DNA from: Dechloromonas sp.
GTDB lineage: Bacteria; Pseudomonadota; Gammaproteobacteria; Burkholderiales; Rhodocyclaceae
Assembly: GCA_008933675.1 (NCBI GenBank)
Contig: WBUO01000009.1
Span: forward strand, 1 to 46,514
DNA: 46,514 nt
Reading direction: 5' to 3'
The position numbers were made by a program, and so were the translations under genes. Below, piece after piece: positions 3,648-35,179 of the stretch. The stretch's first letter is position 1. Each line of letters opens with the position of its first letter. The notes below the pieces were generated by a model. The model saw only the letters and a program-made list of their open reading frames with translations. It was not told the DNA's origin and made no database searches.

Positions 3648-4133
3648 TCAGCCGGTGATGCTCGTCCAGTCCTTCTTGGGCGGCAGCGGCACGCGGGCGA
3701 TCGGCGCGCGCTCGGCGGCGATGACCCGGTCCATCACGTCGTAAAGCTGCTGGATCAGTTCCGGGCCGAAGGCCTGTTCGATGATCCGGTACTGTTCGAC
3801 GATCAGCGGGCCGAGTTCGGATACCAGCTTCTCGCTTTTCGGCGTCATCCGCACCAGCACGCGGCGCTGGTCGCCGGCCATGCGTTCGCGGGTGATCAGG
3901 CCCATTTCCTCCATGCGCGACAGCACGCCGGTCATGCTCGGACTGAGGATGTGGCAGGTCTCGCAGATTTCCCGCGGTTCCATCTGTTCGTTCTCGCCGA
4001 GGGCGCGCAGGATGCGCCACTGTTGTTCGGTCAGGCCGAAATGGGTGATGATCGGGCGGAAGTGACACAATAGCTCTTCGCGCGCTTTCAGGAAGAGCTG
4101 CGGCAGGTTGCGGTAGGCGAGTTTGCGTGACAT
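3648..4133 (-). CDS. hpaR: HpaR, MarR-family repressor of homoprotocatechuate genes
   Basis: This 161-residue winged-helix protein belongs to the MarR family. Its N terminus (MSRKLAYRNLPQLFLKARE, then FGLTEQQWRILRAL and LSPSMTGVLSRMEEMGL) is characteristic of HpaR. HpaR represses the 4-hydroxyphenylacetate/homoprotocatechuate meta-cleavage operon and is relieved by pathway aromatics. It is divergent from hpaA and 152 bp from it. The space between them contains the perfect palindrome CTAACATGTTAG, the likely autoregulatory operator. I chose the ATG at 4133 because it matches the usual family start. An in-frame ATG at 4166 would add 11 residues, and neither has a good ribosome binding site. Related operator copies occur before the monooxygenase, aau-regulator and TRAP-hpa operons. 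Confidence 0.9.
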   Translation of the reverse strand: MSRKLAYRNLPQLFLKAREELLCHFRPIITHFGLTEQQWRILRALGENEQMEPREICETCHILSPSMTGVLSRMEEMGLITRERMAGDQRRVLVRMTPKSEKLVSELGPLIVEQYRIIEQAFGPELIQQLYDVMDRVIAAERAPIARVPLPPKKDWTSITG

Positions 4134-4198
4134 GGCGGCGCTCGGATCGGTTGTGGGGGCGGGCATTGGCGGTGACGATTTCGGTGAAATGATACCAG

Positions 4199-4227
4199 TT
4201 GACTGGCTAACATGTTAGTAATTGAAT
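4199..4227 (+). promoter_or_regulatory. Putative hpaA promoter with HpaR operator in the spacer
   Basis: TTGACT (4199-4204) and TTGAAT (4222-4227) are separated by 17 bp. The perfect 12-bp palindrome CTAACATGTTAG (4207-4218) lies in that spacer. MarR-family repressors typically bind such palindromes and occlude the promoter. On the opposite strand ATGATA at 4189-4194 reads TATCAT, a possible -10 for hpaR. One operator could therefore control both divergent genes. The assignment to HpaR is inferred from adjacency and from recurrence of the motif elsewhere in the pathway. Confidence 0.72.
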
Positions 4228-4285
4228 CAATGGAAGAGCGTATGAACCGGCCGGCCCGGCCGGCAAGCTCGGAGGGAGCGCGGCA

Positions 4286-5200
4286 ATGACGGCAACTCCC
4301 TTGCAGGCCATCCCCGACATCCATATCGGCCGGGTCTACGACCAGCGCGACCCGGAGTGCGAGATCCACTACGAGACCTTCGGCCGGCTGGCCGATTTCT
4401 TCGGCCGCAACACGCCGCCGCACCGGCATTACTGCTTCTTCCAGCTGCACATCCTGACCCGCGGCAGCGTCCGCCTGAATCTGGACGACGTCGCCTACTG
4501 CGGCGATGCGCCGCTGCTCATCTTCACGCCGCCGACGCTGCCGCACGCCTTCTATTCGGAAGAGGATACCGACGGCCATGTGCTGACCGTGCGCCAGGAG
4601 GTGGTGCGCGACTGGTATCGCGCCATGCCCGGCCAGTGGCCGGAAACGCTGCTGCGCCTGCCGGCGTTCGTCGAGCTGTCGCGCCTGCCGGCGGCCAGCG
4701 CCGCCGATTTCGAGGCGCTGGTGCGCACCGTCGAACTGTTGCAGCGCGAGGCCGAGGGCGACGGCAAGGGGCATTCGGCGCTGCTGCGGGCGCTCGGCGA
4801 ATGCGCCTTCATCCATCTCAGCCGCCTGCTGCTGGCGCATGAGCCGGCGGCTGTGGCGCGCAGCGAGCGCAGCGAGGACGTGCGCCTGTTCCTGCAGTTC
4901 TGCGATCTGGTCGAGGCGCATTTCCGCGACCATCTGACGCTGTCCGAATACGCCGGCCGCCTGTCGGTGACCGAGGCAAGGCTCAACGACATCTGCCGGC
5001 GGATGGCCGACCTGCCGTCGAAGGAAATCGTCCATGAGCGCCTGCTGCAGGAGGCGCGCCGGCTGTTGCGCTTCTCGGCGGTGCCGGTCAGCGAGATCAG
5101 CTACCAGCTGGGCTTTGCCGACCCAGCCTATTTCTCGCGCTTCTTCACCAAGCGCACCGGCACGCCGCCGAGCCAGTTCCGGCTGGCTGAGCACAAATGA
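4286..5200 (+). CDS. hpaA: HpaA, AraC-family activator of 4-hydroxyphenylacetate catabolism
   Basis: This 304-residue AraC/XylS-family regulator has an N-terminal cupin-like sensing domain (HYETFGRLADFFGRN, H-rHxHyCFFQLH, then FTPPTLPHAFYSEEDTDGHV). That segment closely resembles HpaA, the activator of the 4-hydroxyphenylacetate hydroxylase genes in enterobacteria. The two C-terminal helix-turn-helix units occupy about residues 205-300 (LTLSEYAGRLSVTEARLNDICRR and the PAYFSRFFTKRTGTPPSQFR signature). GGAGGGAGCG precedes the ATG. In Escherichia coli HpaA controls hpaBC in response to 4-hydroxyphenylacetate. No hpaBC lies nearby here. The next catabolic operon downstream on the same strand is the diiron monooxygenase, which makes that operon the natural target. 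Confidence 0.9.
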   Translation: MTATPLQAIPDIHIGRVYDQRDPECEIHYETFGRLADFFGRNTPPHRHYCFFQLHILTRGSVRLNLDDVAYCGDAPLLIFTPPTLPHAFYSEEDTDGHVLTVRQEVVRDWYRAMPGQWPETLLRLPAFVELSRLPAASAADFEALVRTVELLQREAEGDGKGHSALLRALGECAFIHLSRLLLAHEPAAVARSERSEDVRLFLQFCDLVEAHFRDHLTLSEYAGRLSVTEARLNDICRRMADLPSKEIVHERLLQEARRLLRFSAVPVSEISYQLGFADPAYFSRFFTKRTGTPPSQFRLAEHK

Positions 5201-5308: not shown

Positions 5309-6397
5309 TCAGGCAGCGTCGAACTGGCCAGAGGTGGCTTGCTCAATAGCTTTGGGTAGCTGTTCCCACTTGGCAGAACGCCCCTTGCCAGTGGGGGTAA
5401 TCAACCCTTCGGCTTTCATGGCCCGCAAGACGACACGCACCATGTCGCGGCTGATGCCGGGGCAGGCCTCTTCAATTTCCGAAATCGAGAACGGCAGGTT
5501 TCTCTTGAGGATTTCGGCGCGCACACGTTCACCCTTGGCACCGCGCCCACGTTCAATGGTGCCGACACGTTCCTCGAATTCCTTGTATGCCCGCAGCAGT
5601 GTCCCCCAGAAATAGTCCAGCCACGGTGCAATATCGTGGGCACCGCCATGCCAGCCCTGCGAACTGGCTTCCAGTGTTTCGTAGTAGCTCTCTTTTGATT
5701 CTTCGAAGATGCGCTCCAGGCTGATGAAGCGGCCCACCGCGTAGTCGAAGTGGTAGAGCAACTGCAGGGTCAGCAGCCGCGCCATGCGGCCGTTGCCATC
5801 CGGGAAGGGGTGGATGCAGAGAAAATCGAGGATGACCAGCGGGACCAGCACGAGGGGGTCGGCGAGGTGCTGATCCAGCGCTGTGCGGTAGCGTGCAATC
5901 AGGTCGGTCATCGCCATGGGCGTGAGATGCGCAGCGACCGGGCGGAAGCGGATGCGCGAGCGGCCATCGGGGTGACGCTCGACGATGTCGTTGTTGGTCG
6001 CCTTCCAGTGCCCGCCCTGCTGCGGCATGTAACGATACAGAATGCCGTGAAGCTGCAGGACAGTGCCCTCGGAGAATGGCATCTGCTCGCCGCTTTCGTG
6101 GATGAGACCCAGCGCATCGCGATAGCCGGCCACCTCTTGCTCGGATCTGCTCTTGGGCGTGGCGTTCTTGAGTACCAAGGACTTGAGTCGGTTGGCAGCA
6201 ACCACCACACCTTCGAGGCGATTGGAGGATTCGGTCGACTCGACAACTGCCACCTGGCGAAGATCGCTCAACACCTCGGGAGACTGCGCAACATAAAGTT
6301 GCTGCTTGCCCCGATACTCACCCAAGGCGCGCAGCGTTGCCAGTTGCTGGGCATCAAAACGCAGCTTGTCGAGGTAGTCGGGCAGGAGTGAGTGCAT
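5309..6397 (-). CDS. Fic-family AMPylase-like protein with C-terminal winged helix
   Basis: This 362-residue protein contains the Fic core motif HPFPDGNGRMAR with catalytic H196. Fic enzymes transfer AMP or a related moiety from a nucleotide to protein hydroxyls. An upstream inhibitory helix motif S58-xxx-E62-G63 (SNRLEG) indicates a class II, self-inhibited Fic protein. The C-terminal ~80 residues look like a winged-helix DNA-binding domain (FSISEIEEACPGISRDMVRVVLRAM). The ATG at 6397 is preceded by GAGG with good spacing; a TTG 12 bp further upstream is less likely. Base composition is clearly lower in G+C than the flanking hpa and monooxygenase genes, and the gene is antisense to them. This suggests acquisition by transfer. 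No partner antitoxin gene is visible. A role in catabolism is not supported. Confidence 0.88.
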   Translation of the reverse strand: MHSLLPDYLDKLRFDAQQLATLRALGEYRGKQQLYVAQSPEVLSDLRQVAVVESTESSNRLEGVVVAANRLKSLVLKNATPKSRSEQEVAGYRDALGLIHESGEQMPFSEGTVLQLHGILYRYMPQQGGHWKATNNDIVERHPDGRSRIRFRPVAAHLTPMAMTDLIARYRTALDQHLADPLVLVPLVILDFLCIHPFPDGNGRMARLLTLQLLYHFDYAVGRFISLERIFEESKESYYETLEASSQGWHGGAHDIAPWLDYFWGTLLRAYKEFEERVGTIERGRGAKGERVRAEILKRNLPFSISEIEEACPGISRDMVRVVLRAMKAEGLITPTGKGRSAKWEQLPKAIEQATSGQFDAA

Positions 6398-6419
6398 GAG
6401 TCGCCTCAAAGGCTAGAAC

Positions 6420-6496: not shown

Positions 6497-6576
6497 GAGG
6501 CTGGGTTTCCATCGCTTTTCGTGACAACTCGAGGAGCGAGGTTACGAAAAGTACAAGTCATTTCCCCTTTCGTCCA

Positions 6577-6605
6577 TTCATTAATATCTTAGTAAAAGTT
6601 TTAAT
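6577..6605 (+). promoter_or_regulatory. Putative monooxygenase-operon promoter with HpaR-like operator
   Basis: TTCATT (6577-6582) and TTTAAT (6600-6605) are separated by 17 bp. TTAATATCTTAG (6581-6592) matches the hpaR-hpaA palindrome CTAACATGTTAG at 9 of 12 positions and overlaps the -35/spacer. Transcription would start near 6612. This rules out the ATG at 6604 and supports the dmpK start at 6661. I looked for a sigma54 -24/-12 element, usual for DmpR-type phenol operons, and did not find one. Confidence 0.5.
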
Positions 6606-6660: not shown

Positions 6661-6927
6661 ATGGCAGAAGGCAATTTCGACATCACGCGCAAGTTCGTGC
6701 GCGTCATGCGCACCCTGCCCAACGGTTTGATCGAGTTCGAGTTCGCCGTCGGCGATCCCGATGTGGCGGCCGAGCTGGTCATGCCCAAGGCGGCTTTCGA
6801 GGAGTTCTGCCAGGCCAACCAGGTCGAGCTGTTGAGCGGCGACAAGCCGCAACCGGCGGATGCCGATGCCGCCGACGCCGATTTCAACTGGAACCTGCAT
6901 CAGGCGACGCATCAGCGTTTCCGCTAA
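6661..6927 (+). CDS. dmpK: Phenol-hydroxylase assembly component (DmpK-like)
   Basis: This 88-residue protein resembles DmpK/PhK, the small component at the head of phenol hydroxylase operons. That component is not part of the catalytic turnover but aids iron loading or assembly of the oxygenase. Recognisable segments are RKFVRVMRTLPNGLIEFEFAVGDP and the FNWNLHQATHQRFR tail. AGGAG lies 9 nt before the ATG at 6661. A longer frame from 6604 would add 19 residues but begins within the predicted promoter. It is followed after 61 bp by the rest of the operon on the same strand. Confidence 0.85.
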   Translation: MAEGNFDITRKFVRVMRTLPNGLIEFEFAVGDPDVAAELVMPKAAFEEFCQANQVELLSGDKPQPADADAADADFNWNLHQATHQRFR

Positions 6928-6988: not shown

Positions 6989-7981
6989 ATGGCAATCGAT
7001 TTGAGGACGGTCAGCATCACCCCGCTGCGCCAGACCTTTGGCCATCTGGCCCGGCGCATGGGCGCCGACAAGCCGGCGTCGCGCTACATCGAAGCGACGA
7101 TGGACCTGCAGCCGGTGGAGAACTACCACTACCGCCCGACCTGGGAGCCGGAACGGGACATCTTCGACACCCGCCGCACGGCGATCACGATGAAGGACTG
7201 GTACGCGCTGAAGGACCCGCGCCAGTACTACTACGGCGCCTGGACGCTGGCGCGCGGCAAGATGCAGGAAATCGCCGAGGGCGATTTCGACCTCGTCGAC
7301 GAACTGGGTCTGGCCGCCGCCTATCCGGCTGCCGGCAAGGAAGAAGCCCTCAAGGTCTTCCTGCCGCTGCGCCATGTTGCCTGGGCCTCCAACCTGAACA
7401 AGGCCTATGTCTCTTCCTACAGCTACGGCATCGCCATGTCGCAGGCGGCCTGCTACGCCAGCATGGATCAGCTCGGCGTTGCCCAGTACGTCAGCCGCCT
7501 CGGCCTCGCCTTCAACGACCTGGATGCCCTGGCCGAGGCCAAGACGGCCTGGCTGGAAGGTGCCGAATGGCAGGAACTGCGCCGCTACGTCGAGGATTTG
7601 ATGGTCGAGAAGGACTGGTACGAAGTGCTGGTCGCCCAGGATTTCGCCCTCGAAGGCCTGCTCTATCCGCTGATCTACGAGCGTTTCAACGACAAGCTGA
7701 ATGCCGCCTACAGCCCCGTTTTCTCGATGCTGACCCGCTTCCAGCGTGAATGGTTCGGCGAGACGACGAAGTGGATGGACTCGGTGCTGAAGACCACCGC
7801 CGCCGACAATGCCGACAACAAGGCCAGGCTGGCCGAGTGGATCAGGCACTGGCGCGAGCGTGCCGTCGTCGCCCTGAAGCCGGTCGCCACGCTGGCCTTC
7901 GGCGCCGAGGCCGATGCCGTCATGGAAGAAGTTGTCCAGAACCTGAACGCCCGTGCCGCCAAGGCCGGCATCGCCCTGTAA
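6989..7981 (+). CDS. dmpL: Diiron monooxygenase hydroxylase beta subunit (DmpL-like)
   Basis: This 330-residue protein is the beta subunit of the three-subunit oxygenase of bacterial multicomponent monooxygenases. It folds like the alpha subunit but has no metal site. Typical segments are YHYRPTWEPERDIFDTRRTAITMKDWYALKDPRQYYYG and EWQELRRYVEDLMVEKDWYE (each given here in part). Length agrees with DmpL. AGAGGAG stands before the ATG. It forms the (alpha-beta-gamma)2 oxygenase with the products of 8290 and 9847 in the cytoplasm. Confidence 0.9.
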   Translation: MAIDLRTVSITPLRQTFGHLARRMGADKPASRYIEATMDLQPVENYHYRPTWEPERDIFDTRRTAITMKDWYALKDPRQYYYGAWTLARGKMQEIAEGDFDLVDELGLAAAYPAAGKEEALKVFLPLRHVAWASNLNKAYVSSYSYGIAMSQAACYASMDQLGVAQYVSRLGLAFNDLDALAEAKTAWLEGAEWQELRRYVEDLMVEKDWYEVLVAQDFALEGLLYPLIYERFNDKLNAAYSPVFSMLTRFQREWFGETTKWMDSVLKTTAADNADNKARLAEWIRHWRERAVVALKPVATLAFGAEADAVMEEVVQNLNARAAKAGIAL

Positions 7982-7994
7982 AGGAAGCCCTCAC

Positions 7995-8264
7995 ATGTCC
8001 AACGCCTTCATCGCCTTCCAGAAAAACGACGAATCCCGCTGCATCGTCGAGGCCATCCTCGAGGACAACCCGAACGCCATGGTCGACGACCAGCCGTCGA
8101 TGGTGAAGATCGACGTGCCCAACCGCCTGGTCATCAAGCGCGAGACGGTCAGCGAAAAGATGGGCCGGGAGTTCGACCTGCAGGAACTGCAACTGCACCT
8201 GATCACCATCTCCGGCAACCTCGACGAGACCGACGACGAATTCACCCTGAGCTGGAACAACTGA
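7995..8264 (+). CDS. dmpM: Monooxygenase coupling/effector protein (DmpM-like)
   Basis: This 89-residue cofactorless regulatory protein binds the oxygenase and is needed for efficient hydroxylation in this enzyme class. It shows the family pattern of an N-terminal beta strand (FIAFQKNDESRCIVEAI), a central VKIDVPNRLVIKR strand and a C-terminal FTLSWNN. The ATG at 7995 is 13 bp after dmpL and follows AGGAAG. An in-frame upstream extension overlaps dmpL and is not expected. Confidence 0.9.
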   Translation: MSNAFIAFQKNDESRCIVEAILEDNPNAMVDDQPSMVKIDVPNRLVIKRETVSEKMGREFDLQELQLHLITISGNLDETDDEFTLSWNN

Positions 8265-8289: not shown

Positions 8290-9834
8290 ATGGATATGAA
8301 AGTTGCCAAGAAGCTCGGCCTCAAAGAGCGCTATGCCCTGATGACCCGCGATCTGGCCTGGGACACGACCTACCAGAAGATGGAAGACGTCTTCCCGCAG
8401 ACCACCTACGAAGGCATCAAGATCCACGACTGGGACAAGTGGGAAGACCCCTTCCGCCTGACCATGGACGCCTACTGGAAGTACCAGGCCGAGAAGGAGC
8501 GCAAGCTGTACGCCATCCTCGACGGCTTCAACCAGAACAACGGCCACCTGTCGGTCACCGACGCCCGCTACATCAACGTTTTGAAGCTCTTCCTCGGCTC
8601 GACCCCGCCGCTCGAGCTGATGGCCGCCCGCGGCTTCTCGATGATGGGCCGGCAGATGAACGGCGCCGGTCCGCGCGTCGCCTGCCAGATGCAGGCGGTC
8701 GATGAATACCGCCACTTCCAGACGCAGATCCACTCGATCTCCAACTACAACAAGTACTACAACGGGATGGACGAGTTCGCCCACCAGCAATCCCGCATGT
8801 GGTACCTGTCCGACGGCAAGTCCTTCTTCGACGACGCCATCACTGCCGGCCCGTTCGAATTCATGGTCGCCATCGGCTTCGCCTTCGAATACGTGCTGAC
8901 CAACATCCTGTTCGTGCCCTTCATCTCCGGCGCCGCCTACAACGGCGACATGGCGGCGATGACCGTCGGCTTCTCGGCACAGTCCGACGAGGCGCGCCAC
9001 ATGACGCTCGGCCTCGAATGCATCAAGTTCATGCTCGAGCAGGACCCGGACAACCTGCCCATCGTCCAGCGCTGGATCGACAAGTGGACCTGGCGCGGCA
9101 CCCGCAAGCTCGCTTCCGTCGGCATGATGATGGATTACATGCTGCCCAAGCGCATCATGAGCTTCAAGGAAGCCTGGGAAATGTACGTCGAGGAAAACGG
9201 CGGCGCCCTGTTCAAGGACCTGGCCCGCTACGGCATCACCATCCCGAAGTGCTTCAGCCAGACCATCGAGGAGAAGGAACACGTCTCCCACCAATCGTGG
9301 ATCGGCTTCTACATGAAGCCGCAGGCAACGCCCTTCCACACCTGGATTCCGACGCCGGACGAAATGGACTGGCTGTCCGAGAAGTACCCCAACACCTTCG
9401 ACCAGTACTACCGTCCGGTGCTCGAATTCTTCGACGCCCAGGAAAAGGCCGGCAACCGCTTCAACAACCAGACGGCGCCGATGAACTGCCAGGTCTGCGT
9501 CAGCACCATGAAGTTCAACGAGCCGGGCGACCCGATGGAAATGTGCTTCCGCGAATCGATCTACAACGGCGAGAAGTTCCACACCTGCTCCGACCACTGC
9601 AAGGAAATCTTCGACAACGAGCCGGAGAAGTACAGCCAGACCTTCATTTCCTCGCACCAGGTGCTGCAGGGCAACTGCGAGCCGGATGGCACCGATACCA
9701 GTGCGCCGGACTTCAAGCCGGGCCAGGACATGCTCGGCTACTGGAAGCTCGACAAGCGCGCCCTCGGCGACTTCAACGGCTCCGAGGACCAGAAGAACTT
9801 CGCCGCCTGGCGCGAACAAGCGACCAAGAACTAA
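8290..9834 (+). CDS. dmpN: Diiron monooxygenase hydroxylase alpha subunit (DmpN-like)
   Basis: This 514-residue catalytic subunit carries the carboxylate-bridged diiron site. The ligands are visible as E109, E139-xx-H142 (VDEYRHF), E200 and E234-xx-H237 (SDEARHM). The spacing is exactly that of toluene/phenol monooxygenases (30 residues from the first to the second glutamate, 34 from the third to the fourth). A C-terminal cysteine-containing segment (NCQVC ... CSDHCKEIF) resembles the YHS-like tail of phenol hydroxylases. The family oxidises phenol and alkylphenols to catechols. Here the gene lies between hpa regulators and hpa ring-cleavage genes, so 4-hydroxyphenylacetate or its aldehyde or amine precursor is a plausible substrate. 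This is inference. AAGGAG precedes the ATG. Confidence 0.93.
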   Translation: MDMKVAKKLGLKERYALMTRDLAWDTTYQKMEDVFPQTTYEGIKIHDWDKWEDPFRLTMDAYWKYQAEKERKLYAILDGFNQNNGHLSVTDARYINVLKLFLGSTPPLELMAARGFSMMGRQMNGAGPRVACQMQAVDEYRHFQTQIHSISNYNKYYNGMDEFAHQQSRMWYLSDGKSFFDDAITAGPFEFMVAIGFAFEYVLTNILFVPFISGAAYNGDMAAMTVGFSAQSDEARHMTLGLECIKFMLEQDPDNLPIVQRWIDKWTWRGTRKLASVGMMMDYMLPKRIMSFKEAWEMYVEENGGALFKDLARYGITIPKCFSQTIEEKEHVSHQSWIGFYMKPQATPFHTWIPTPDEMDWLSEKYPNTFDQYYRPVLEFFDAQEKAGNRFNNQTAPMNCQVCVSTMKFNEPGDPMEMCFRESIYNGEKFHTCSDHCKEIFDNEPEKYSQTFISSHQVLQGNCEPDGTDTSAPDFKPGQDMLGYWKLDKRALGDFNGSEDQKNFAAWREQATKN

Positions 9835-9846: not shown

Positions 9847-10206
9847 ATGACCCTATTGAAAACCCTCGCTCCGTACGAGTTCAAGTCGCGCGATGCGGTC
9901 GAGAACTACCAGGGCCGCCAGTTGCTGTACGTGAACTGGGAGCGCCACCGCATGTTCTCGCGCCCCTTCGTGCTGGCCATGAAGCCGGAAACGCCGTTCT
10001 CGGCGGTGCTGGAAGAAATGGCCGCCTGTTTCAGCTACCACCCGGACTGGCAGCACATCGACTGGGACAAGGCCATCTGGCAGAACGGCAACACGCCCTT
10101 CACGCCGGATCGCAACAAGACCCTGGCCGAGAACGGCATCGGCCACAAGGATCTGATCCGTTTCCGCACCCCGGGCCTCGACGGCATCGCCGGCACGGGC
10201 TACTGA
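9847..10206 (+). CDS. dmpO: Diiron monooxygenase hydroxylase gamma subunit (DmpO-like)
   Basis: This 119-residue protein matches the gamma subunit of phenol hydroxylase: YEFKSRDAVENYQGRQLLYVN near the start and a DKAIWQNGNTPFTPDRNKTL segment in the middle. It stabilises the alpha-beta core. It lies 12 bp after dmpN with AAGGAG before the ATG, on the same transcript. Confidence 0.9.
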   Translation: MTLLKTLAPYEFKSRDAVENYQGRQLLYVNWERHRMFSRPFVLAMKPETPFSAVLEEMAACFSYHPDWQHIDWDKAIWQNGNTPFTPDRNKTLAENGIGHKDLIRFRTPGLDGIAGTGY

Positions 10207-10270: not shown

Positions 10271-11326
10271 ATGAGCTACGAACTGACCATCGAGCCGCTC
10301 GGCCGCAGCATTGAGGTCGAAGACGGCCAGACCATCCTCGACGCCGCGCTGCGCGCCGGTATCTACCTGCCGCATGCCTGCGGCCAGGGCTACTGCGCCA
10401 CCTGCAAGGTCTGCATCACCGACGGCGAAGTCGACCACCAGAATTCCTCCAGCTTCGCGCTGATGGACTACGAGCGCGAGGAGGGCAAGGCACTGGCCTG
10501 CTGCGCCACGCTCGAAGCCGACACGGTGATCGAAGTCGAGATGGAAATCGACGAGGACGCCCGCGACATCCCGGTCAAGGACTTCCCGGGCGTGGTCAGT
10601 CGCATCGAAGACCTGACGCCGACGATCAAGGGCATCTGGCTCAAGCTCGACGAAGCCCTCGATTTCCAGGCAGGCCAGTACGTCAATTTCAACCTGCCCA
10701 ACGACATGGGGCACCGCGCCTTCTCGCTGGCCAACGCACCGTCGACCGGCGACGAGATCGAGCTGAACATCCGCATCGTCCCCGGCGGTGCCGGCACCAC
10801 CTGGATCCACAACGAACTCAAGGTCGGCGACGCGGTGACCGTCTCCGGACCCTATGGCCGCTTCTTCGTGCACAAGTCGGCCAATGTGCCGTCCTTGTTC
10901 ATGGCTGGCGGTTCCGGCCTGTCCAGCCCGCGGGCCATGATCCTCGACCTGCTGGAAGAGGGCAGCGAACTGCCGATCACCCTGGTCTACGGCGCCCGCA
11001 ACCAGGGCGAGCTGTACTACCACCAGGAGTTCGTCGACCTGGCCGCGAAATACCCGAACTTCACCTATGTGCCGGCCCTCAACGACGAACCGGCCGACAG
11101 TGGCTGGACGGGCTTCCGCGGCTTCGTCCATGAAGCCGCCAAGCACCATTTCGACAACGACTTCCGTGGCAACAAGGCCTATCTCTGCGGCCCGCCGGTG
11201 ATGATCGAAGCCTGCATCACGACGCTGATGCAGGGCCGCCTGTTCGAGCGCGACATCTACACCGAGAAATTCTTCTCGGCCGCCGACGCCCAGCAGGTGC
11301 GCAGCCCGTTGTTCAAGCGGGTGTGA
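10271..11326 (+). CDS. dmpP: Phenol-hydroxylase reductase (DmpP-like)
   Basis: This 351-residue reductase has an N-terminal plant-type [2Fe-2S] domain with ligands C37, C42, C45 and C77 (CGQGYCATC). An FAD-binding domain with HRAFSLANAP follows, then an NAD-binding domain with GGSGLSSPRAM and CGPPVMIEA. It passes electrons from NADH to the diiron oxygenase. It closes the dmpKLMNOP operon: 64 bp after dmpO and followed by a strong terminator hairpin. There is no catechol 2,3-dioxygenase (dmpB) behind it, unlike classical phenol meta-cleavage operons. Confidence 0.93.
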   Translation: MSYELTIEPLGRSIEVEDGQTILDAALRAGIYLPHACGQGYCATCKVCITDGEVDHQNSSSFALMDYEREEGKALACCATLEADTVIEVEMEIDEDARDIPVKDFPGVVSRIEDLTPTIKGIWLKLDEALDFQAGQYVNFNLPNDMGHRAFSLANAPSTGDEIELNIRIVPGGAGTTWIHNELKVGDAVTVSGPYGRFFVHKSANVPSLFMAGGSGLSSPRAMILDLLEEGSELPITLVYGARNQGELYYHQEFVDLAAKYPNFTYVPALNDEPADSGWTGFRGFVHEAAKHHFDNDFRGNKAYLCGPPVMIEACITTLMQGRLFERDIYTEKFFSAADAQQVRSPLFKRV

Positions 11327-16636: not shown

Positions 16637-16680
16637 TTGCCGATTTTTGATAACGAGCCGGCAGCCCTGATTCCTACACT
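16637..16680 (+). promoter_or_regulatory. AraC-type activator box and -10 upstream of the DUF1329 operon
   Basis: TTGCCGATTTTTGATA (16637-16652) differs at one position from the box before aauB and is also followed after 22 bp by a -10-like hexamer, TACACT (16675-16680). The repeated geometry suggests both operons are activated by the same regulator, most simply the AraC protein at 11738. The start codon is 67 bp further on. Confidence 0.55.
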
Positions 16681-16747
16681 CGATTCCACCATAAAGCAGT
16701 CCGGGCCGGCGGGGGCCGTGCCCTTACCCAACGAGGAGGTTCACATC

Positions 16748-19808: not shown

Positions 19809-19817
19809 GTGCAGCAG

Positions 19818-22280: not shown

Positions 22281-22291
22281 GAGAGACGATC

Positions 22292-26503: not shown

Positions 26504-26528
26504 ACGCCGGCAGCCAAGGAGAACAGGC

Positions 26529-28396: not shown

Positions 28397-28411
28397 TTGG
28401 AGTTTGCAAGC

Positions 28412-29053
28412 ATGATCAAACAACACGTCGCCGGCACCGTTTACGGCGTCATCCTCAACGACAGCGTCTCGCTGCAGCGGATCGGATCGCTCGACGAGGC
28501 ACCGTACAAGGGCGCGCCGAAAGCGCCGGTGCTCTACCTCAAGCCGGCCAACACCCGGGTCGCCTGCGGTGCACAGGTCAGCCTGCCGGCGGGTGCCGAC
28601 AGCGTTGAAGTCGCCGCCACCGTCGGCCTGGTCATCGGCACGGCGGCCGGCCGCCTGACGCCGGCCAATGCCCTGCAAGCCGTCGCCGGCCTGGTGCTCG
28701 CCGCCGATCTCAGCCTGCCGCATGCCAGCTACTACCGCCCGGCCATCCGTGAGAAATGCTTCGACGGTTCGCTGCCGATCTCGTCGGTCAAGCCGCGGGT
28801 TGACCTGGCCGGCCTGACGCTGACGACCGAGATCGACGGCCAGGTGGTCGACAGCCGCTCGTTGAGCGAGCTGATCCGTTCGCCGGCCCAACTGCTGGCC
28901 GACGTCAGCGAATGGATGACCCTGAGCCAGGGCGACGTCCTGCTCGTCGGTGTCCGCTACATGGCGCCGCAGGCCAAGGCCGGCAGCACGGTGCGCATAA
29001 GTGCCGACGGTCTCGGCAGTCTCAACTTCACCATCGCAGGGGCACAAGCATGA
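28412..29053 (+). CDS. hpaG1: HpaG1, 2-oxohept-3-enedioate isomerase/decarboxylase subunit
   Basis: This 213-residue protein of the FAH fold corresponds to the N-terminal half of enterobacterial HpaG (VYGVILNDSVSLQRIG, AVALIVG-like ATVGLVIGTAAG, HASYYRPAIREKCFDGSLPI). With HpaG2 it converts 5-carboxymethyl-2-oxohex-3-enedioate into 2-oxohept-3-enedioate by decarboxylation and isomerisation. In Escherichia coli the two halves are fused; here they are separate genes overlapping by 4 bp (ATGA). The ATG at 28412 is chosen over an in-frame TTG 15 bp upstream. Confidence 0.9.
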   Translation: MIKQHVAGTVYGVILNDSVSLQRIGSLDEAPYKGAPKAPVLYLKPANTRVACGAQVSLPAGADSVEVAATVGLVIGTAAGRLTPANALQAVAGLVLAADLSLPHASYYRPAIREKCFDGSLPISSVKPRVDLAGLTLTTEIDGQVVDSRSLSELIRSPAQLLADVSEWMTLSQGDVLLVGVRYMAPQAKAGSTVRISADGLGSLNFTIAGAQA

Positions 29054-29808
29054 AGCGTGGTCGCATCGCCTACAACGGCGCCGTTCATCAGGTCACCGAG
29101 GCCAATGGCCGCGTGCGCCTGGCCGACGGCCGCCTGCTCGCGGAAGGGCAGTTCCAGTGGCTGCCGCCGGTCGAAGTCGGCACCGTCTTCGCCCTCGGCC
29201 TCAACTATGCCGACCACGCCAGGGAATTGGCCTTCAAGGCGCCGGAAGTGCCGCTGGTCTTCCTCAAGGGGCCGAACGCCATCACCGGTCACAAGGCGCA
29301 GACGCGCCGCCCGGCCGATGCCACCTACATGCACTACGAGTGCGAGCTGGCCGTCGTCATCGGCAAGACCGGCAAGAACGTGACGAAGGCCGAGGCGATG
29401 GACATGGTCGCCGGCTACACCGTGGCCAACGACTACGCCATCCGCGACTACCTGGAGAACTATTACCGGCCGAACCTGCGCGTCAAGAACCGCGACGCCT
29501 GCACGCCGCTCGGCCCCTGGCTGGTCGATGCCGCCGACGTGGCGAACCCGATGGCACTGAAGCTGACGACGCGGGTCAACGGCCAGACGACGCAGCAAGG
29601 CACGACCGCCGACATGATCTTCGACATCCCGACGCTGATCGAATACCTGTCGTCCTTCATGACCCTGAACCCCGGCGACGTGATCCTGACCGGCACGCCG
29701 GAAGGCCTGGCCGACGTCAAGCCGGGCGATGTCATCGAAACCGAAGTCGAGGGTGTGTGCTGCCTGATCAACACCATCGTCGACGACGCCACCTATTTCG
29801 CCAACTGA
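29050..29808 (+). CDS. hpaG2: HpaG2, 5-oxopent-3-ene-1,2,5-tricarboxylate decarboxylase subunit
   Basis: This 252-residue FAH-fold protein is the counterpart of the C-terminal half of HpaG. It has the metal-binding segment HYECELAVVIGKTGKNV and the conserved AGYTVANDYAIRDYLENYY and GDVILTGTPEGLADVKPGDV (each family-typical). It acts together with HpaG1. It is the second of the coupled pair and is followed 22 bp later by hpaE. Confidence 0.92.
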   Translation: MKRGRIAYNGAVHQVTEANGRVRLADGRLLAEGQFQWLPPVEVGTVFALGLNYADHARELAFKAPEVPLVFLKGPNAITGHKAQTRRPADATYMHYECELAVVIGKTGKNVTKAEAMDMVAGYTVANDYAIRDYLENYYRPNLRVKNRDACTPLGPWLVDAADVANPMALKLTTRVNGQTTQQGTTADMIFDIPTLIEYLSSFMTLNPGDVILTGTPEGLADVKPGDVIETEVEGVCCLINTIVDDATYFAN

Positions 29809-29830: not shown

Positions 29831-31285
29831 ATGATCAAGCACATCATCAACGGCCGGCAGGTCGAGAGCCGTGAAACCTTCCAGACCGTCAATCCGGCGA
29901 CCGGCGAAGTCATCGCCGAGGTCGCCAGCGGCGGCGAGGCCGAGGTCAATGCGGCGGTGGCCGCCGCCAAGGCCGCCTTCCCCGGCTGGGCGGCGACGCC
30001 GGTCAAGGAGCGCGCCCGCCTGGTGCGCCGGCTGGGCGAACTGATCGCCGCCAATGTCGAACCGATTGCCGACATGGAAACCGCCGACACCGGCCAGGTC
30101 ACCAACCAGACCAAGCGCGTGCTGGTGCCGCGCGCCTCGGACAACTTCAACTACTTCGCCGAGCTGATCCAGCACATGCACGGCGAAACCTACGACTCCG
30201 ACACCGGCCACCTGAACTACACGCTGTGGCAGCCAGTCGGCGTCTGCGCGCTGATCTCGCCGTGGAACGTGCCGTTCATGACCGCCACCTGGAAGACCGC
30301 GCCCTGCCTGGCCTTCGGCAACACCGCCGTGATGAAGATGTCCGAGCTGTCGCCGCTGACCGCCAACCGCCTGGGCGAACTGGCGCTGGAAGCCGGCATC
30401 CCGCCGGGCGTCTTCAACGTCGTCCAGGGCTTCGGCAACACTGCCGGCGAGCCGCTGGTCTCGCACCCGGACGTCCGCTCCATTTCCTTCACCGGCTCGA
30501 CCGCCACCGGCAACCGCATCGTCAAGTCGGCCGGCCTGAAGAAGTTCTCGATGGAACTGGGCGGCAAGTCGCCCTTCATCATCTTCGACGACGCGGATTA
30601 CGAGCGGGCGCTCGATGCCGCCATCTTCATGATCTTCTCGAACAACGGCGAGCGCTGCACGGCCGGTTCGCGGATCATCGTTCAGGAAGGCATCTACGAC
30701 CGCTTCGTCGCCGATTTCGCGTTGCGCGCCTCGCGCCTGACCGTCGGCGACCCGATGGACCCGAACACCGTGATCGGCCCGATGATCTCCAGGGGCCACC
30801 AGGAGAAGGTCAATTACTACATCGAACTCGGCAAGCAGGAAGGCGCCAAGGTCGTCTTCGGCGGCGGCACGCCGGTGGTGGCCGACAGGTTCAGGAACGG
30901 CTTCTGGGTCCAGCCCACCGTCTTCGCCGACGTCGACAACAGCATGCGCATCGCCCAGGAAGAAATCTTCGGCCCGGTGCCCTGCATCATCCGCTTCAAG
31001 ACCGAAGAGGACGCCGTGCGCATTGCCAACGACACCATCTACGGCCTGTCGTCCTACCTGTGGACCAACAACACCGGCCGCGCCATCCGCCTGGCCAAGG
31101 CCATCGAATCCGGCATGACCTTCGTCAACAGCCAGAACGTCCGCGACCTGCGCCAGCCCTTCGGCGGCTCCAAGGCCTCCGGCACCGGCCGCGAAGGCAA
31201 CCACTACAGCTACGAAGTGTTCTGCGAAGCCAAGAACATCGCGGTTTCGTACGGCAGCCATCACATCCCGCGCTGGGGCGTGTAA
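29831..31285 (+). CDS. hpaE: HpaE, 5-carboxymethyl-2-hydroxymuconate semialdehyde dehydrogenase
   Basis: This 484-residue aldehyde dehydrogenase has LISPWNVPFM, glutamate motif FSMELGGKSP, catalytic NNGERCTAGSR and C-terminal LRQPFGGSKASGTGREGNHY. Together with its position between hpaG2 and hpaD, this identifies HpaE. It oxidises the semialdehyde produced by ring cleavage of homoprotocatechuate, using NAD. GCGAGGACAGC precedes the ATG. Confidence 0.92.
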   Translation: MIKHIINGRQVESRETFQTVNPATGEVIAEVASGGEAEVNAAVAAAKAAFPGWAATPVKERARLVRRLGELIAANVEPIADMETADTGQVTNQTKRVLVPRASDNFNYFAELIQHMHGETYDSDTGHLNYTLWQPVGVCALISPWNVPFMTATWKTAPCLAFGNTAVMKMSELSPLTANRLGELALEAGIPPGVFNVVQGFGNTAGEPLVSHPDVRSISFTGSTATGNRIVKSAGLKKFSMELGGKSPFIIFDDADYERALDAAIFMIFSNNGERCTAGSRIIVQEGIYDRFVADFALRASRLTVGDPMDPNTVIGPMISRGHQEKVNYYIELGKQEGAKVVFGGGTPVVADRFRNGFWVQPTVFADVDNSMRIAQEEIFGPVPCIIRFKTEEDAVRIANDTIYGLSSYLWTNNTGRAIRLAKAIESGMTFVNSQNVRDLRQPFGGSKASGTGREGNHYSYEVFCEAKNIAVSYGSHHIPRWGV

Positions 31286-31309: not shown

Positions 31310-32158
31310 ATGGGCAAACTCGCACTCGCCGCCAAGATCACCCACGTTCCGTCGATGTATCTGTCCGAGCAGGACGGGCCGCACAAGGGCTGCCGCCAGG
31401 CGGCCATCGACGGCCACAAGGAGATCGCCCGCCGCATGCGCGAAGCCGGCGTCGATACCGTCGTCGTCTTCGACACGCACTGGCTGGTCAACTCCGGCTA
31501 CCACATCAACTGCGCGCCGTCGTGGGAGGGTATCTACACCTCCAACGAACTGCCGCACTTCATCAAGAACCTGCCATTCTCCTACGTCGGCAACCCGCAA
31601 CTGGGCAGGCTGATCGCCGACACGGCCACCGCCGCCGGCGTGCATACCCGCGCCCATGACGCGACCAGCCTGGCGCCGGAATACGGCACCCTGGTGCCGA
31701 TGCGCTACATGAACCCGGACAAGCAGTTCAAGGTCGTCTCGGTGTCGGCGCTGTGCACGGTGCACAACCTGGCCGATTCCATCGTCCTCGGCCAGGCCGT
31801 GCGCCAGGCCATCGAGGAACAGTACGACGGCACCGTCGCCGTGCTGGCTTCCGGCTCGCTGTCGCACCGCTTCGCCCAGAACGGCGTCTCCGAGCAGTTC
31901 CTGCACAAGGTCTGGGACCCCTTCCTGGAAACCGTCGATCACCACGTCGTCGAGCTGTGGAAGAACGGCGACTGGCAGACCTTCTGCGGCATGCTGCCCG
32001 AGTACGCGGTCAAGTGTCACGGCGAGGGCATGATGCACGACACGGCGATGCTGATGGGCGTGCTCGGCGGCGCGCAATACACCGGCAAGGCGGAAGTCGT
32101 CACGCCGTACTTCGGCTCCTCCGGCACTGGCCAGATCAACGTCGTCTTTCCCCTCTAA
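31310..32158 (+). CDS. hpaD: HpaD, homoprotocatechuate 2,3-dioxygenase (copy 1)
   Basis: This 282-residue class III (LigB-type) extradiol dioxygenase shows the iron ligands in KITHVPSMY (His) and DTHWLVN (His), and the conserved GEGMMHDT segment. The catalytic histidine lies in ASGSLSHRF. MGKLALAAKITHVPSMYLSE is nearly the enterobacterial HpaD start. It cleaves 3,4-dihydroxyphenylacetate next to the hydroxyls. A second, divergent copy follows 68 bp later. Confidence 0.92.
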   Translation: MGKLALAAKITHVPSMYLSEQDGPHKGCRQAAIDGHKEIARRMREAGVDTVVVFDTHWLVNSGYHINCAPSWEGIYTSNELPHFIKNLPFSYVGNPQLGRLIADTATAAGVHTRAHDATSLAPEYGTLVPMRYMNPDKQFKVVSVSALCTVHNLADSIVLGQAVRQAIEEQYDGTVAVLASGSLSHRFAQNGVSEQFLHKVWDPFLETVDHHVVELWKNGDWQTFCGMLPEYAVKCHGEGMMHDTAMLMGVLGGAQYTGKAEVVTPYFGSSGTGQINVVFPL

Positions 32159-32226: not shown

Positions 32227-33123
32227 ATGGGTGAAATCCTCATGGCCATCAAGTGCACGCACGTGCCGTCGATGCTCATTTCCGAACAGCCGGGCCCGGC
32301 CCACGGCTGCCGTCAGGCGGCCATCGACGCCGAACGCGAACTGGGCCGCCGTGCCGTCGAACTCGGCGTCGATACCTTCATCGTCTTCGACACGCACTGG
32401 CTGGTGAATGCCGGCTATCACATCAACAACAACGCGGTGCACAAGGGTAATTACACCAGCCACGAGTTCCCGCACTTCATCCAGGACCTGCCCTACGAGT
32501 TCCCCGGCAACCCGGAACTCGGCGACCTGATTGCCGAGGAAGCCACGGCCATGGGCGTCAAGACGCGCGCCCACCGCGTGCCGTCGCTCGATCTCGAATA
32601 CGGCACCATCCTGCCGATGCGCTACATGAACCCGGAAGGCAGGATCAAGGTTGTTTCGATCGCCGGCTGGAGCACCTTCGGCTCGCTGGAAGAGTCGCGC
32701 ATCCTCGGCGAGGCGGTGGCCAAGGCCGTGGCGCGCAGCAACTGCAAGGTGGCCATCGTCGCCTCCGGTTCGATGTCGCACCAGATCTGGGAGAACCGTC
32801 TGGTCGAGCAGGGCTTCAACACCATCAGCCGCGAATTCAACAAGCAGGTCGACCTGCGCGCGCTGCAGCTGTGGGAAGAAGGCCAGTGGGAAACCTTCCT
32901 GCGCATGCTGCCCGAGTACGCGCAATACTGCACCGGCGAAGGCAAGATGCACGACACGGCGATGCTGTTCGGCGCGCTCGGCTGGGACAAGTTCGAAGGC
33001 AAGGCGGAGATCGTCTGCCCGTACTTCGAAAGCTCCGGCACCGGCCAGGTCGTCGTCAGCCTGCCGGTGGCCGGCATCCCGCTGGCCAGCCGCGGCATCG
33101 GCGCCGAAATGCCGGTTTCCTGA
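32227..33123 (+). CDS. HpaD-like extradiol dioxygenase (copy 2)
   Basis: This 298-residue paralogue of the preceding gene keeps every active-site motif (KCTHVPSM, DTHWLVNAGYH, ASGSMSHQI, GEGKMHDTAML). It differs widely elsewhere and carries a 16-residue C-terminal extension past the family SSGTGQV end. AAGGGAGACAGCA precedes the ATG. Both copies look intact, so either they form a heteromer or they have different catechol substrates. It is more like canonical HpaD in the LGWDKFEGKAE region, whereas copy 1 is more like it at the N terminus. Which of the two is the main homoprotocatechuate dioxygenase is not decidable by eye. Confidence 0.9.
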   Translation: MGEILMAIKCTHVPSMLISEQPGPAHGCRQAAIDAERELGRRAVELGVDTFIVFDTHWLVNAGYHINNNAVHKGNYTSHEFPHFIQDLPYEFPGNPELGDLIAEEATAMGVKTRAHRVPSLDLEYGTILPMRYMNPEGRIKVVSIAGWSTFGSLEESRILGEAVAKAVARSNCKVAIVASGSMSHQIWENRLVEQGFNTISREFNKQVDLRALQLWEEGQWETFLRMLPEYAQYCTGEGKMHDTAMLFGALGWDKFEGKAEIVCPYFESSGTGQVVVSLPVAGIPLASRGIGAEMPVS

Positions 33124-33150: not shown

Positions 33151-33543
33151 ATGCCCCACCTGATCTTTGAAATCACCGACAACCTGGACACGCCGGAAAG
33201 CGACGTGCCGGGCCTGTTGAAGAAGGCCAACCAGGTCCTGATCGACCAGGGCGGGGTGTTCCCGACCGGCGGCATCCGCTCCCGCGCCATCTGGCTGCGC
33301 GACTACTGCGTCGCCGACGGCGTCGCCGACGATGCTTTCGTCCATGTCACGCTGAAGATCGGCGCCGGCCGCTCGGACGAGGCGAAGAAGAAGACCGGCG
33401 ACGAACTGTTCGCGATGATCTGCCAGCACTTCGCCGCCATCTACCAGAAACGCACGCTGGCGCTGTCGATGGAAATCGTCGAGTTCAGCGAGGCCGGCAC
33501 CTGGAAGCAGAACAACATCCACGCCCGTTACAAGAAGAATTGA
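33151..33543 (+). CDS. hpaF: HpaF, 5-carboxymethyl-2-hydroxymuconate delta-isomerase
   Basis: This 130-residue member of the tautomerase superfamily has proline directly after the initiator methionine (MPHLIFEITDNL), the catalytic N-terminal base after processing. LRDYCVADGVADDAFVHVTL and the ARYKKN end are family-typical. It isomerises 5-carboxymethyl-2-hydroxymuconate to the 2-oxo form used by HpaG. AAGGAGCGCGGA precedes the ATG. Confidence 0.92.
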   Translation: MPHLIFEITDNLDTPESDVPGLLKKANQVLIDQGGVFPTGGIRSRAIWLRDYCVADGVADDAFVHVTLKIGAGRSDEAKKKTGDELFAMICQHFAAIYQKRTLALSMEIVEFSEAGTWKQNNIHARYKKN

Positions 33544-33565
33544 CCCCCACCAAGAGGAAAGAGAA

Positions 33566-34369
33566 ATGCTCAACCCAGACATCATCCAGGCCGCCGCCCA
33601 GCGCCTGCACGCTGCCGAGAAGGCCCGCCAGGCGGTGCGCCAGATTTCGCTGGACCACCCCGAGATCACCATCGAGGACGCCTACGCCATCCAGAAGGCC
33701 TGGGTGCAGATGAAGCTGGCCGAAGGCCAGAAGATCGTCGGCCACAAGATCGGCCTGACCTCGCGCGCCATGCAGCAGTCGTCGCAGATCAACGAGCCGG
33801 ATTTCGGCACGCTGCTCGACGAGATGGTCTACAAGGACGCCGCCGACATTCCCTGCGCGCGCTTCATCGATCCGATGGTCGAGGTCGAGCTGGCCTTCAT
33901 CCTCAAGGACCGCCTGGAAGGCCCGGACGTCACCATCTTCGACGTGCTCAGCGCCACCGACTACGTCGTGCCGGCCGTCGAGATCATCGATGCCCGCTGC
34001 CACCGCATCGACCCGGAAAGCAAGCGGCCGCGCAAGGTCATGGACACCATTTCGGACAACGCCGCCAACGTCGGCATCATCCTCGGTGGCCGCCCGATCA
34101 AGCCGCTGGACGTCGATCTGCGCTGGGTCGCCGCGCTGCTCTACAAGAACGGCGTGATCGAGGAAACGGGCGTCGCCGCCGGTGTGCTGAACCATCCGGC
34201 CAACGGCATCTCCTGGCTGGCCAAGAAGTTCGCCCCGCACGGCGTGGCGCTGGAACCGGGGCAGATCATCCTGGCCGGCTCCTTCACACGGCCGGTCAAG
34301 GTGGCGCCGGGCGACACCATCCACGTCGATTACGGCCCGCTCGGCAACATCAGCGCCCGGTTCGTTTAA
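33566..34369 (+). CDS. hpaH: HpaH, 2-oxohept-4-ene-1,7-dioate hydratase
   Basis: This 267-residue hydratase of the FAH/MhpD type shows [32 protein letters not shown] and [11 protein letters not shown], matching HpaH in length and sequence. It adds water to the oxoheptenedioate to give 4-hydroxy-2-oxoheptanedioate. It lies 22 bp after hpaF and 12 bp before hpaI. Confidence 0.93.
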
Positions 34370-34381
34370 AGGACACGCATC

Positions 34382-35179
34382 GTGGACATGCCCCTGAACC
34401 AGTTCAAACGCGCGCTGGCCGCCGGCGAAACCCAGATCGGCCTGTTTCTCGGCATGGCCAACGCCTACGCCGCGGAAGTGGTCGCCACGGCCGGTTTCGA
34501 CTGGCTGCTGATCGATGGCGAGCATGGACCCAACGACCTGCAATCGATCATCGGCCAGTTACAGGCACTCGGCCAGTACCCGGTCCGGCCGGTCGTGCGC
34601 ACGGTGGACCACGACGTCGCCCGCATCAAGCAACTGCTCGACGGTGGTGCCCAGACGCTGATGGTGCCGATGGTCGAAACCGCCGCCGAAGCCGAGTCGC
34701 TGGTCCGCGCCATGCGCTACCCGCCGCACGGCATCCGCGGCGTCGGCACGGCACTCGCCCGCGCTGCCCGCTGGAACGGTGTCGAAGGCTACTTTGCCAA
34801 GGCCGACCAGGAGATGTGCCTGATCGTGCAGATCGAATCGGTTGCCGGTCTGGCCGGTCTCGATGACATCCTCAAGATCGATGGCGTCGATGCCGTGTTC
34901 ATCGGGCCGTCCGATCTGGCGGCTTCGATGGGGCATCTGGGTAATCCTGGGCATGCCGATGTGAAAGCTGCCGTGGCCGCGGCCATCGGCAAGATTGCCG
35001 CGGCCGGCAAGGCGGCGGGGGTGTTCTCGGCCGATCCGGTGGCGGCCGAGTCCTATCGGCAGATCGGGGCGAGTTTTCTGCTGGTGGGGGTGGATGCGTT
35101 GTTGCTGAGGAATTCGGCGGTGGCGTTGGCGGAGAGGTTCAAGAATAGTTCTGCGGCCAAGGGTGGGGCGGCTTACTGA
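34382..35179 (+). CDS. hpaI: HpaI, 4-hydroxy-2-oxoheptane-1,7-dioate aldolase
   Basis: This 265-residue class II aldolase of the HpcH/HpaI family has LLIDGEHGPND (catalytic histidine), VRPVVRTV, QIESVAGLAGLDDI (metal-binding glutamate) and VFIGPSDLAASMG (metal-binding aspartate). It splits the substrate into pyruvate and succinic semialdehyde, the latter taken on by GabD downstream. The GTG at 34382 is 8 nt after AAAGGA and is preferred over the ATG at 34388. It is the last gene of the TRAP-hpa operon. Confidence 0.92.
   Translation: MDMPLNQFKRALAAGETQIGLFLGMANAYAAEVVATAGFDWLLIDGEHGPNDLQSIIGQLQALGQYPVRPVVRTVDHDVARIKQLLDGGAQTLMVPMVETAAEAESLVRAMRYPPHGIRGVGTALARAARWNGVEGYFAKADQEMCLIVQIESVAGLAGLDDILKIDGVDAVFIGPSDLAASMGHLGNPGHADVKAAVAAAIGKIAAAGKAAGVFSADPVAAESYRQIGASFLLVGVDALLLRNSAVALAERFKNSSAAKGGAAY

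Follow-up and report, generated by a model that had tools for sequence, protein, structure and literature searches.

Judging by sequence comparison, a diiron enzyme has very probably replaced the flavin enzyme of the 4-hydroxyphenylacetate (4-HPA) pathway in Dechloromonas, Zoogloea, and some of their relatives. Here, we describe a phenol-hydroxylase-type operon, dmpKLMNOP, on a stretch of Dechloromonas DNA of 46,514 bases (contig C355; GC content, 64.5%; hereafter the window), where it lies among genes for 4-HPA breakdown (hpa). With a probability of about 0.78, we read dmpKLMNOP as encoding a diiron 4-HPA hydroxylase that replaces HpaBC, is fed by a TRAP transporter and an amine branch, and is controlled by the regulator HpaA. 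It also seems likely that a single HpaA-type promoter slot has three unrelated occupants, namely, an HpaB-type flavin enzyme, a C2-type flavin enzyme, and a diiron enzyme whose active site has shifted from phenol to the charged 4-HPA.

The DmpN clade and its genomic context

The source genome (G000) comprised 4.87 Mb in 530 contigs (completeness, 100%; contamination, 4.92%). An initial annotation of the window had listed a gene set leading from tyramine-type amines to succinate, placed dmpKLMNOP between the hpa regulators and the degradation genes, and seen no catechol 2,3-dioxygenase adjoining it. Profile and structure-database matches recovered every gene named there, the order was as described, and tblastn (1e-6) detected no catechol 2,3-dioxygenase in the window. 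All six dmp components (K, L, M, N, O, and P, in this order) scored over their Pfam cut-offs; by eye, no ferredoxin gene was seen directly after dmpP in the window.

Bacterial genomes were scanned for DmpN, and the best 80 of 588 relatives fell on two sides of a gap in identity to the window protein, with 27 loci at 82 to 99% (clade loci) and 53 at 66 to 72% (ordinary loci). The closest DmpN among the matches listed (99% identity) came from a Dechloromonas metagenome-assembled genome (MAG). From 102 DmpN rows, 15 were removed (12 duplicates or fragments and 3 copies of a 27%-identical toluene-monooxygenase-like protein), and the remaining 87 (30 clade, 56 ordinary, and 1 distant, L114; L016 and L119 denote a single Leeia locus) were placed in a tree by a quick method with Shimodaira-Hasegawa-like approximate likelihood ratio test (SH-aLRT) support and no bootstrap. 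The 30 window-like rows fell into a single clade (SH-aLRT, 100; stem length, 0.67 changes per site), and the separate grouping of hpaR/hpaA-linked DmpN proteins that the initial annotation had envisaged was thereby recovered.

The regulator gene hpaA lay upstream in 25 of the 27 clade loci and hpaR in 21, against none of the 53 ordinary loci for either (at a criterion of at least 45% identity in the ordinary set). The two clade loci without hpaA upstream were that of Leeia oryzae (L016), which is unlinked, and L020, whose contig is too short to tell. Measured between tblastn ends, the gap from hpaA to dmpK was 67 to 206 bp in all but one of the 25 other hpaA-bearing clade loci; the exception is L011, where it is 7.4 kb and about 7 kb of other genes fill it. 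Catechol 2,3-dioxygenase was beside dmp in 0/27 clade loci versus 44/53 ordinary loci (6 of the 9 ordinary loci lacking it are cut off within 2.2 kb of dmpN), and a DctD query for the sigma-54-type regulator matched 39/53 ordinary loci and 1/27 clade loci. Because the parts are those of the phenol-hydroxylase-type diiron family but the usual context, catechol 2,3-dioxygenase with a sigma-54-type regulator, is missing from the clade, we read its product as an enzyme of known type with a new role. Clade dmp genes were unlinked to hpa catabolic genes in G231 (L118 and L117), Leeia (L016), and G131 (L120), where they co-occur with HpaD; a PaaX-family regulator gene (L117:7151-8095) lies directly upstream of the unlinked operon in G231.

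The residues E109, E139, H142, E200, E234, and H237, which we take to be the diiron ligands of DmpN, were present in 30/30 clade and 56/56 ordinary rows. Near the first ligand, helix B carries G103, S104, T105, P106, L110, and A113 in the clade and mostly T/S/N, G, I/V, S, Y, and H in ordinary proteins. The gate residue, 105, which aligns with V106 of TomA3 and I100 of ToMO, was T in all 30 clade rows and I or V in all 56 ordinary rows. Tyrosol is the alcohol analogue of 4-HPA. In T4MO, residue 100 is part of a hydrophobic gate, and the I100A, I100S, and I100G variants raised the conversion of p-tyrosol to hydroxytyrosol 34- to 36-fold (PMC3962191; this and the other PubMed Central [PMC] articles cited here are represented by excerpts). 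Residues T105, L110, Y140, K273, and K343 do not vary within the clade (A113 is kept in 29/30 rows); K273 and K343, found in 30/30 clade and 0/56 ordinary rows, are candidate residues for the charged 4-HPA. Position R114, which in comparison with the OX1 enzyme had looked like a clade-specific carboxylate binder, was rejected, R being present in 56/56 ordinary rows too.

An hpaBC pair elsewhere in the genome, a search for which the initial annotation had named as one check on its proposal, did not appear: the sole match to PF03241 in G000 was isomerase-like (HpaC was not searched separately). The best PDB matches of this protein were vinylacetyl-CoA isomerase (6vjr, 1.7e-86) and a 4-hydroxybutyryl-CoA dehydratase-type enzyme (1u8v, 7.8e-86), with HpaB at 3.3e-34, and it scored 149.5 bits against TIGR02309 (cut-off, 480.2); it was ruled out as HpaB on these grounds. 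The gene at L001:1369-2985 is vinylacetyl-CoA-isomerase/4-hydroxybutyryl-CoA-dehydratase-like and liable to annotation as a 4-HPA 3-hydroxylase. PF03241 was over its cut-off in 3/26 clade genomes, 2 of the 3 matches being isomerase-like. A C2-type hydroxylase (a relative of 2jbr) was not found in G000 and, at 74% identity or more, in none of the 26 clade genomes or the 6 genomes with clade DmpN from the draw described below; the search of clade genomes gave weak matches only (26 to 34% identity). Since the G000 assembly is fragmented, a relative of the same genus (G244; one contig; 99% complete) was examined. It had no PF03241 or C2-type match genome-wide and carried hpaA-dmpKLMNOP-dctP-dctM-hpaG1-E-D-D-F-H-I-gabD in a single run. 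In E. coli, the gene next after hpaA is hpaB.

The promoter element and co-occurrence with HpaD

The regions upstream of clade dmpK genes share a strongly conserved stretch, which in the window reads ACGAAAAGTACAAGTCATTTCCCCTTTCGTCCATTCAT (38 bp) and ends 80 bp before the likely dmpK start (6661, the start used in relatives, is more likely than 6604). The element was retained despite genes intervening between hpaA and dmpK (window and L011) and before dmp sets away from hpaA (Leeia, G131, and G231). A weight matrix, trained on 31 sites (18 distinct) located upstream of clade dmpK genes, was then applied outside this training set. In the window, the next best site after the training site scored 14.7 bits, and the matrix scan found no second copy above that score.

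In the E. coli hpa region (19.5 kb), the best site (33.3 bits; next best, 3.2) falls in the hpaA-hpaB gap, 88 bp ahead of hpaB; none of 200 shuffles reached this score (highest, 25.5). Sites at the same place before hpaB scored 37.4 bits in Klebsiella and 15.4 in Erwinia (next best, 3.7), a site at a comparable place in Aminobacter scored 11.7, and hpaB of G125 had an element of 21.8 bits. Four congeneric genomes have the element ahead of their C2-type hydroxylase as well (L124, 32.9; L130, 29.3; L132, 18.4; L135, 28.9 bits), with highest scores among 200 shuffles of 14.3 for L124 and 21.3 for L130. In L124 (14146, 20.4 bits), L130 (13336, 21.0), and L132 (5859, 15.2), the space separating hpaA from the divergent operon on the hpaG side holds a second copy, which suggests control of both operons by the element in these loci. 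Within 3 kb upstream of dmpN, 0/50 testable ordinary phenol hydroxylase loci exceeded 15 bits (maximum, 14.4), and 29/29 testable clade loci did so (28 distinct; minimum, 18.3; mostly training data). The dmp operon of the window both follows hpaA and carries an hpaBC-type promoter element. In E. coli, HpaA activates the hpaBC promoter when 4-HPA is present (PMC4468947, citing Prieto and Garcia 1997), and we infer that the element is an HpaA site.

HpaD (TIGR02298) and HpaB were searched for in 26 clade genomes, all but that of L018. HpaD was present in 25 of them (23 over cut-off and 2 as fragments; none in G011). Among 300 genomes drawn from the order, 25 had HpaD over cut-off, and clade DmpN (at least 87% identity) occurred in 6, all within those 25; the chance of such a 6/6 overlap is about 2 in ten million (by hand) if the genomes are independent, but only three families are represented among the 6. 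Ordinary DmpN alone was present in eight genomes of the draw, 2 of them with HpaD. Among the 25 HpaD genomes, 6 had clade DmpN, 5 a C2-type enzyme (74 to 100% identity to the L121 query; four of one genus), 1 an HpaB over cut-off (G125, 1057.5 bits), and 2 an HpaB below it (G281, 461.8 against 480.2; G320, 656.9 against 885.2); the remainder comprised 3 with weak HpaB relatives only and 8 with no clear hydroxylase. None of the 25 held two of the three hydroxylase types. HpaD was also searched for in the 48 genomes of 50 ordinary loci (all 53 but L048, L060, and L078; Leeia oryzae is counted in both genome sets, as G015 and G087) and found in 8, of which 3 (Zoogloea G340, G344, and G352) also have clade DmpN, adjoining hpaA and hpaR.

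Alternative substrates and roles

The main substrate could be a close relative of 4-HPA (3-hydroxyphenylacetate [3-HPA], or phenylacetate hydroxylated twice), with 4-HPA secondary. Most E. coli strains use 3-HPA and 4-HPA via the same hpa pathway (PMC7201708), E. coli HpaA reportedly responds to phenylacetate too (PMC4468947), double hydroxylation is possible for engineered toluene monooxygenases (PMC3962191), and the unlinked dmp set of G231 is preceded by its PaaX-family regulator gene. Phenylacetate is not recognized by Serratia HpaA, however (PMC10364317), and the enzyme is most closely related to phenol hydroxylases, whose substrates are already phenols; we consider this substrate range unlikely. 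The dmp enzyme might instead turn tyramine into dopamine ahead of the amine dehydrogenase, whose genes follow the dmp operon in the window and in L004, L007, L008, L010, L011, L027, L159, and L161. Yet in L002, L003, L013, L015, L019, L022, and L163, the genes that follow dmpP are those of a TRAP transporter and hpa, and no intervening amine dehydrogenase gene was detected, so the amine branch looks optional, and the dmp promoter element is that of 4-HPA hydroxylase genes. A role in dopamine formation accordingly appears quite improbable.

Chance placement of an ordinary phenol hydroxylase would agree with the 66 to 72% identity to such enzymes and with the six subunits and diiron ligands retained, but it is very hard to square with the absence of catechol 2,3-dioxygenase beside all 27 clade loci, with a separate clade that has an altered helix B and an hpaBC-type promoter element, and with the ordinary phenol hydroxylase set that G000 already has on C321 (DmpN 67% identical). 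A third diiron monooxygenase set of G000, toluene-monooxygenase-like and 27% identical, is on C357 (L089; a 6.2-kb contig). We likewise give very little credence to an unrecognized flavin hydroxylase elsewhere that performs the 4-HPA step and leaves dmp another role in the same regulon. The absence search covered the HpaB family (PF03241) and the C2 type, and the weak C2-like matches noted above occur in some clade genomes; neither the hpa region of the window nor the panel matches of the G244 region showed a recognizable gene of this kind, though, and hpaA and the element point to dmp.

Several points weigh against dmpKLMNOP as the 4-HPA hydroxylase. Known substrates of the diiron family are mostly uncharged, and 4-HPA is an anion. 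The matrix scan found no element before the Agrobacterium HpaB-like gene and none in the C2-type locus L121 (G035). A first matrix, with one wrong training site (L120), reached 17.7 bits somewhere in the 53 ordinary loci, so lone scores of 15 to 18 bits mean little without position. For Serratia HpaA, the text gives binding of 4-HPA at 28.5 uM and the table prints 4-hydroxybenzoic acid (PMC10364317). An HpaB-like gene (L090; 649.7 bits; cut-off, 885.2) accompanies the dmp set in one clade genome, G020 (locus L022). HpaD alone implies none of the three hydroxylase types, because 11 of the 25 HpaD genomes of the draw are without a clear one, and 5 of the 48 ordinary-DmpN genomes have HpaD and no clade DmpN. 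HpaB or a C2-type enzyme had been expected in these 5, an expectation that mostly failed. In 3 of them (G348, G361, and G368), a search covering the HpaB family found no member; of the other two, G350 has an HpaB relative at 36% and G372 only the isomerase-like paralogue. Relatedness makes all of the counts nonindependent, and many clade genomes, like G000, are MAGs or fragmented assemblies.

Gene content, proposed route, and known systems

The genes of the window are listed in Table 1, in which curated cut-offs are those of NCBIfam for the hpa and gabD models and of Pfam for the dmp domains. To the earlier gene list, we add that hpaD is present in two adjacent copies and that a minus-strand Fic-domain gene separates hpaA from dmpK. 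The genes of the homoprotocatechuate meta pathway (hpaG, E, D, F, H, and I) occur together, with G1, F, and I below their curated cut-offs. Both amine dehydrogenase subunits matched aromatic enzymes better than methylamine enzymes (3.1e-45 at best for the small subunit and 2.6e-39 for the large), and by these matches the predicted enzyme is of the aromatic, not the methylamine, type. The mauD-like label is presumptive and given by position. The group of genes after the amine dehydrogenase (DUF1329 to YCF48-like) is possibly an export or uptake module for hydrophobic compounds. Because the StyD score of the aldehyde dehydrogenase is under its cut-off, the model assigns it no substrate. The TRAP transporter genes sit between dmpP and hpaG in several relatives too.

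Table 1. Features of the window, with positions, strands, and supporting matches.
Feature	Position	Strand	Evidence
hpaR, MarR-type homoprotocatechuate operon regulator	3648..4166	-	TIGR02337 142.7 bits (cut-off 121.2)
hpaA, AraC-type 4-HPA regulator	4286..5200	+	TIGR02297 311.1 bits (cut-off 274.65)
Fic-domain gene, outside pathway	5309..6409	-	PF02661 53.1 bits
Conserved promoter element, proposed HpaA-responsive	6544..6581	+	weight matrix 54.5 bits (training site)
dmpK, phenol hydroxylase P0-type subunit	6661..6927 (open reading frame [ORF] possible from 6604)	+	PF06099 85.5 bits
dmpL, hydroxylase beta-type subunit	6989..7981	+	PF02332 172.2 bits
dmpM, effector protein	7989..8264	+	PF02406 104.7 bits
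dmpN, hydroxylase alpha-type subunit	8290..9834	+	PF02332 224.6 bits, with a YHS domain; phenol hydroxylase phN 3u52 4.3e-205
dmpO, hydroxylase gamma-type subunit	9847..10206	+	PF04663 76.3 bits
dmpP, 2Fe-2S/FAD reductase	10271..11326	+	PF00111, PF00970, PF00175
AraC-family regulator, proposed for amine branch	11738..12736	+	HTH_18 68.2 bits; EutR model 158.7 bits (under cut-off 319)
aauB, aromatic amine dehydrogenase large subunit	12829..13992	+	2h3x 9.8e-88
mauE-like maturation protein	13994..14539	+	PF07291 90.1 bits
mauD-like thioredoxin-fold protein	14536..15156	+	PF13098 29.8 bits, PF00578 27.8 bits
aauA, aromatic amine dehydrogenase small (tryptophan tryptophylquinone [TTQ]) subunit	15160..15705	+	2agl 7.8e-62
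Cytochrome c, probable electron acceptor	15630..16139 (ORF; true start probably near 15700)	+	PF00034 47.2 bits
Second small heme protein	16150..16575	+	CMGCH motif read by eye; no Pfam match
DUF1329, DUF1302, RND/MMPL transporter, YCF48-like genes	16637..23290	+	PF07044, PF06980, PF03176, PF14870
Aldehyde dehydrogenase, proposed 4-hydroxyphenylacetaldehyde to 4-HPA	23325..24755	+	StyD model 417.3 bits (cut-off 850)
TRAP transporter dctPQM, proposed 4-HPA uptake	25484..28396	+	PF03480, PF04290, PF06808
hpaG1	28397..29053	+	TIGR02305 210.4 bits (under cut-off 228.65)
hpaG2	29050..29808	+	TIGR02303 388.4 bits (cut-off 276.4)
hpaE	29831..31285	+	TIGR02299 718.7 bits (cut-off 638.35)
hpaD, 3,4-dihydroxyphenylacetate 2,3-dioxygenase	31310..32158	+	TIGR02298 471.4 bits (cut-off 315.95)
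Second hpaD	32227..33123	+	TIGR02298 451.4 bits (cut-off 315.95)
hpaF	33151..33543	+	PRK15031 134.5 bits (under cut-off 215)
hpaH	33566..34369	+	TIGR02312 458 bits (cut-off 351.5)
hpaI	34382..35179	+	TIGR02311 352.3 bits (just under cut-off 368.8)
ORF, 204 aa, between hpaI and gabD; probably no gene	35179..35793		no Pfam match
gabD, succinate semialdehyde dehydrogenase (SSADH)	35837..37291	+	TIGR01780 (SSADH subfamily) 736.1 bits (cut-off 646.35)

In the route that we propose, 4-HPA would enter via the TRAP transporter; alternatively, the TTQ aromatic amine dehydrogenase and the aldehyde dehydrogenase would form it from tyramine-type amines. HpaA would sense 4-HPA and, at the element, switch on dmp, as for hpaBC in E. 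coli. Electrons would pass from NADH through DmpP to the DmpLNO hydroxylase, with DmpM coupling the catalytic cycle, and the diiron center would insert one oxygen atom next to the hydroxyl group of 4-HPA, forming homoprotocatechuate (3,4-dihydroxyphenylacetate). HpaD would then open the ring, and HpaE, F, G, H, and I with GabD would carry the product to pyruvate and succinate.

No link between a multicomponent phenol hydroxylase and 4-HPA breakdown was found in the open-licence PMC literature, represented mostly by titles and the starts of abstracts. The searched text of the Dechloromonas aromatica genome paper (PMC2907700) makes no mention of hydroxyphenylacetate, homoprotocatechuate, or hpa; one table row reads "hydroxyphenylacetic acid catabolism pathway," and a dmp-like set is described with catechol 2,3-dioxygenase. 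Excerpts of PMC4250580, PMC6460240, and PMC11309472 contain no dmp/4-HPA link, and that of PMC10816480 names flavin enzymes only. What appears new is thus a third unrelated hydroxylase in the HpaA slot, after the HpaB-type and C2-type flavin enzymes. If the proposal holds, a well-studied pathway step has a third, unrelated solution, and nature offers a diiron monooxygenase that acts on a carboxylated phenol, which is of interest for the production of catechols such as hydroxytyrosol. With three unrelated enzymes in one slot, regulation would have stayed fixed while the first enzyme was swapped across chemistry classes, and the promoter element would have outlived the enzyme it once served. Because homology labels these genes phenol hydroxylases, dmpN-based surveys of phenol degradation would misread the clade, which occurs in Dechloromonas, Azonexus, Zoogloea, and Leeia. 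Isolates that carry the clade operon include Dechloromonas hortensis, Zoogloea dura, and Leeia oryzae. The clade-fixed residues make the substrate change directly testable.

Among known systems, the AauAB aromatic amine dehydrogenase resembles that of the window in both subunits and in the MauD/MauE-like genes; in the window, however, the set is linked to both dmp and hpa and has cytochrome c genes as neighbors. The DmpKLMNOP, PH, and TOM phenol hydroxylases of the catechol meta pathway share the six components, the diiron ligands, and an alpha subunit of about 60 to 72% identity, but the window enzyme falls in a separate clade with the gate changed from I/V to T, Y110L, and H113A, and this clade has HpaA/HpaR in place of the sigma-54-type regulator and no catechol 2,3-dioxygenase. 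The C1/C2 p-hydroxyphenylacetate hydroxylase (2jbr) would share the proposed reaction and, in four congeneric genomes, has a promoter element of the same type, but it is a flavin enzyme, with no relative of at least 74% identity in the clade genomes searched. HpaBC of E. coli and Klebsiella, a flavin oxygenase with a flavin reductase, is unrelated to the six-component diiron system, although dmp shares with it the place after hpaA, the promoter element, the pathway partners, and the proposed reaction.

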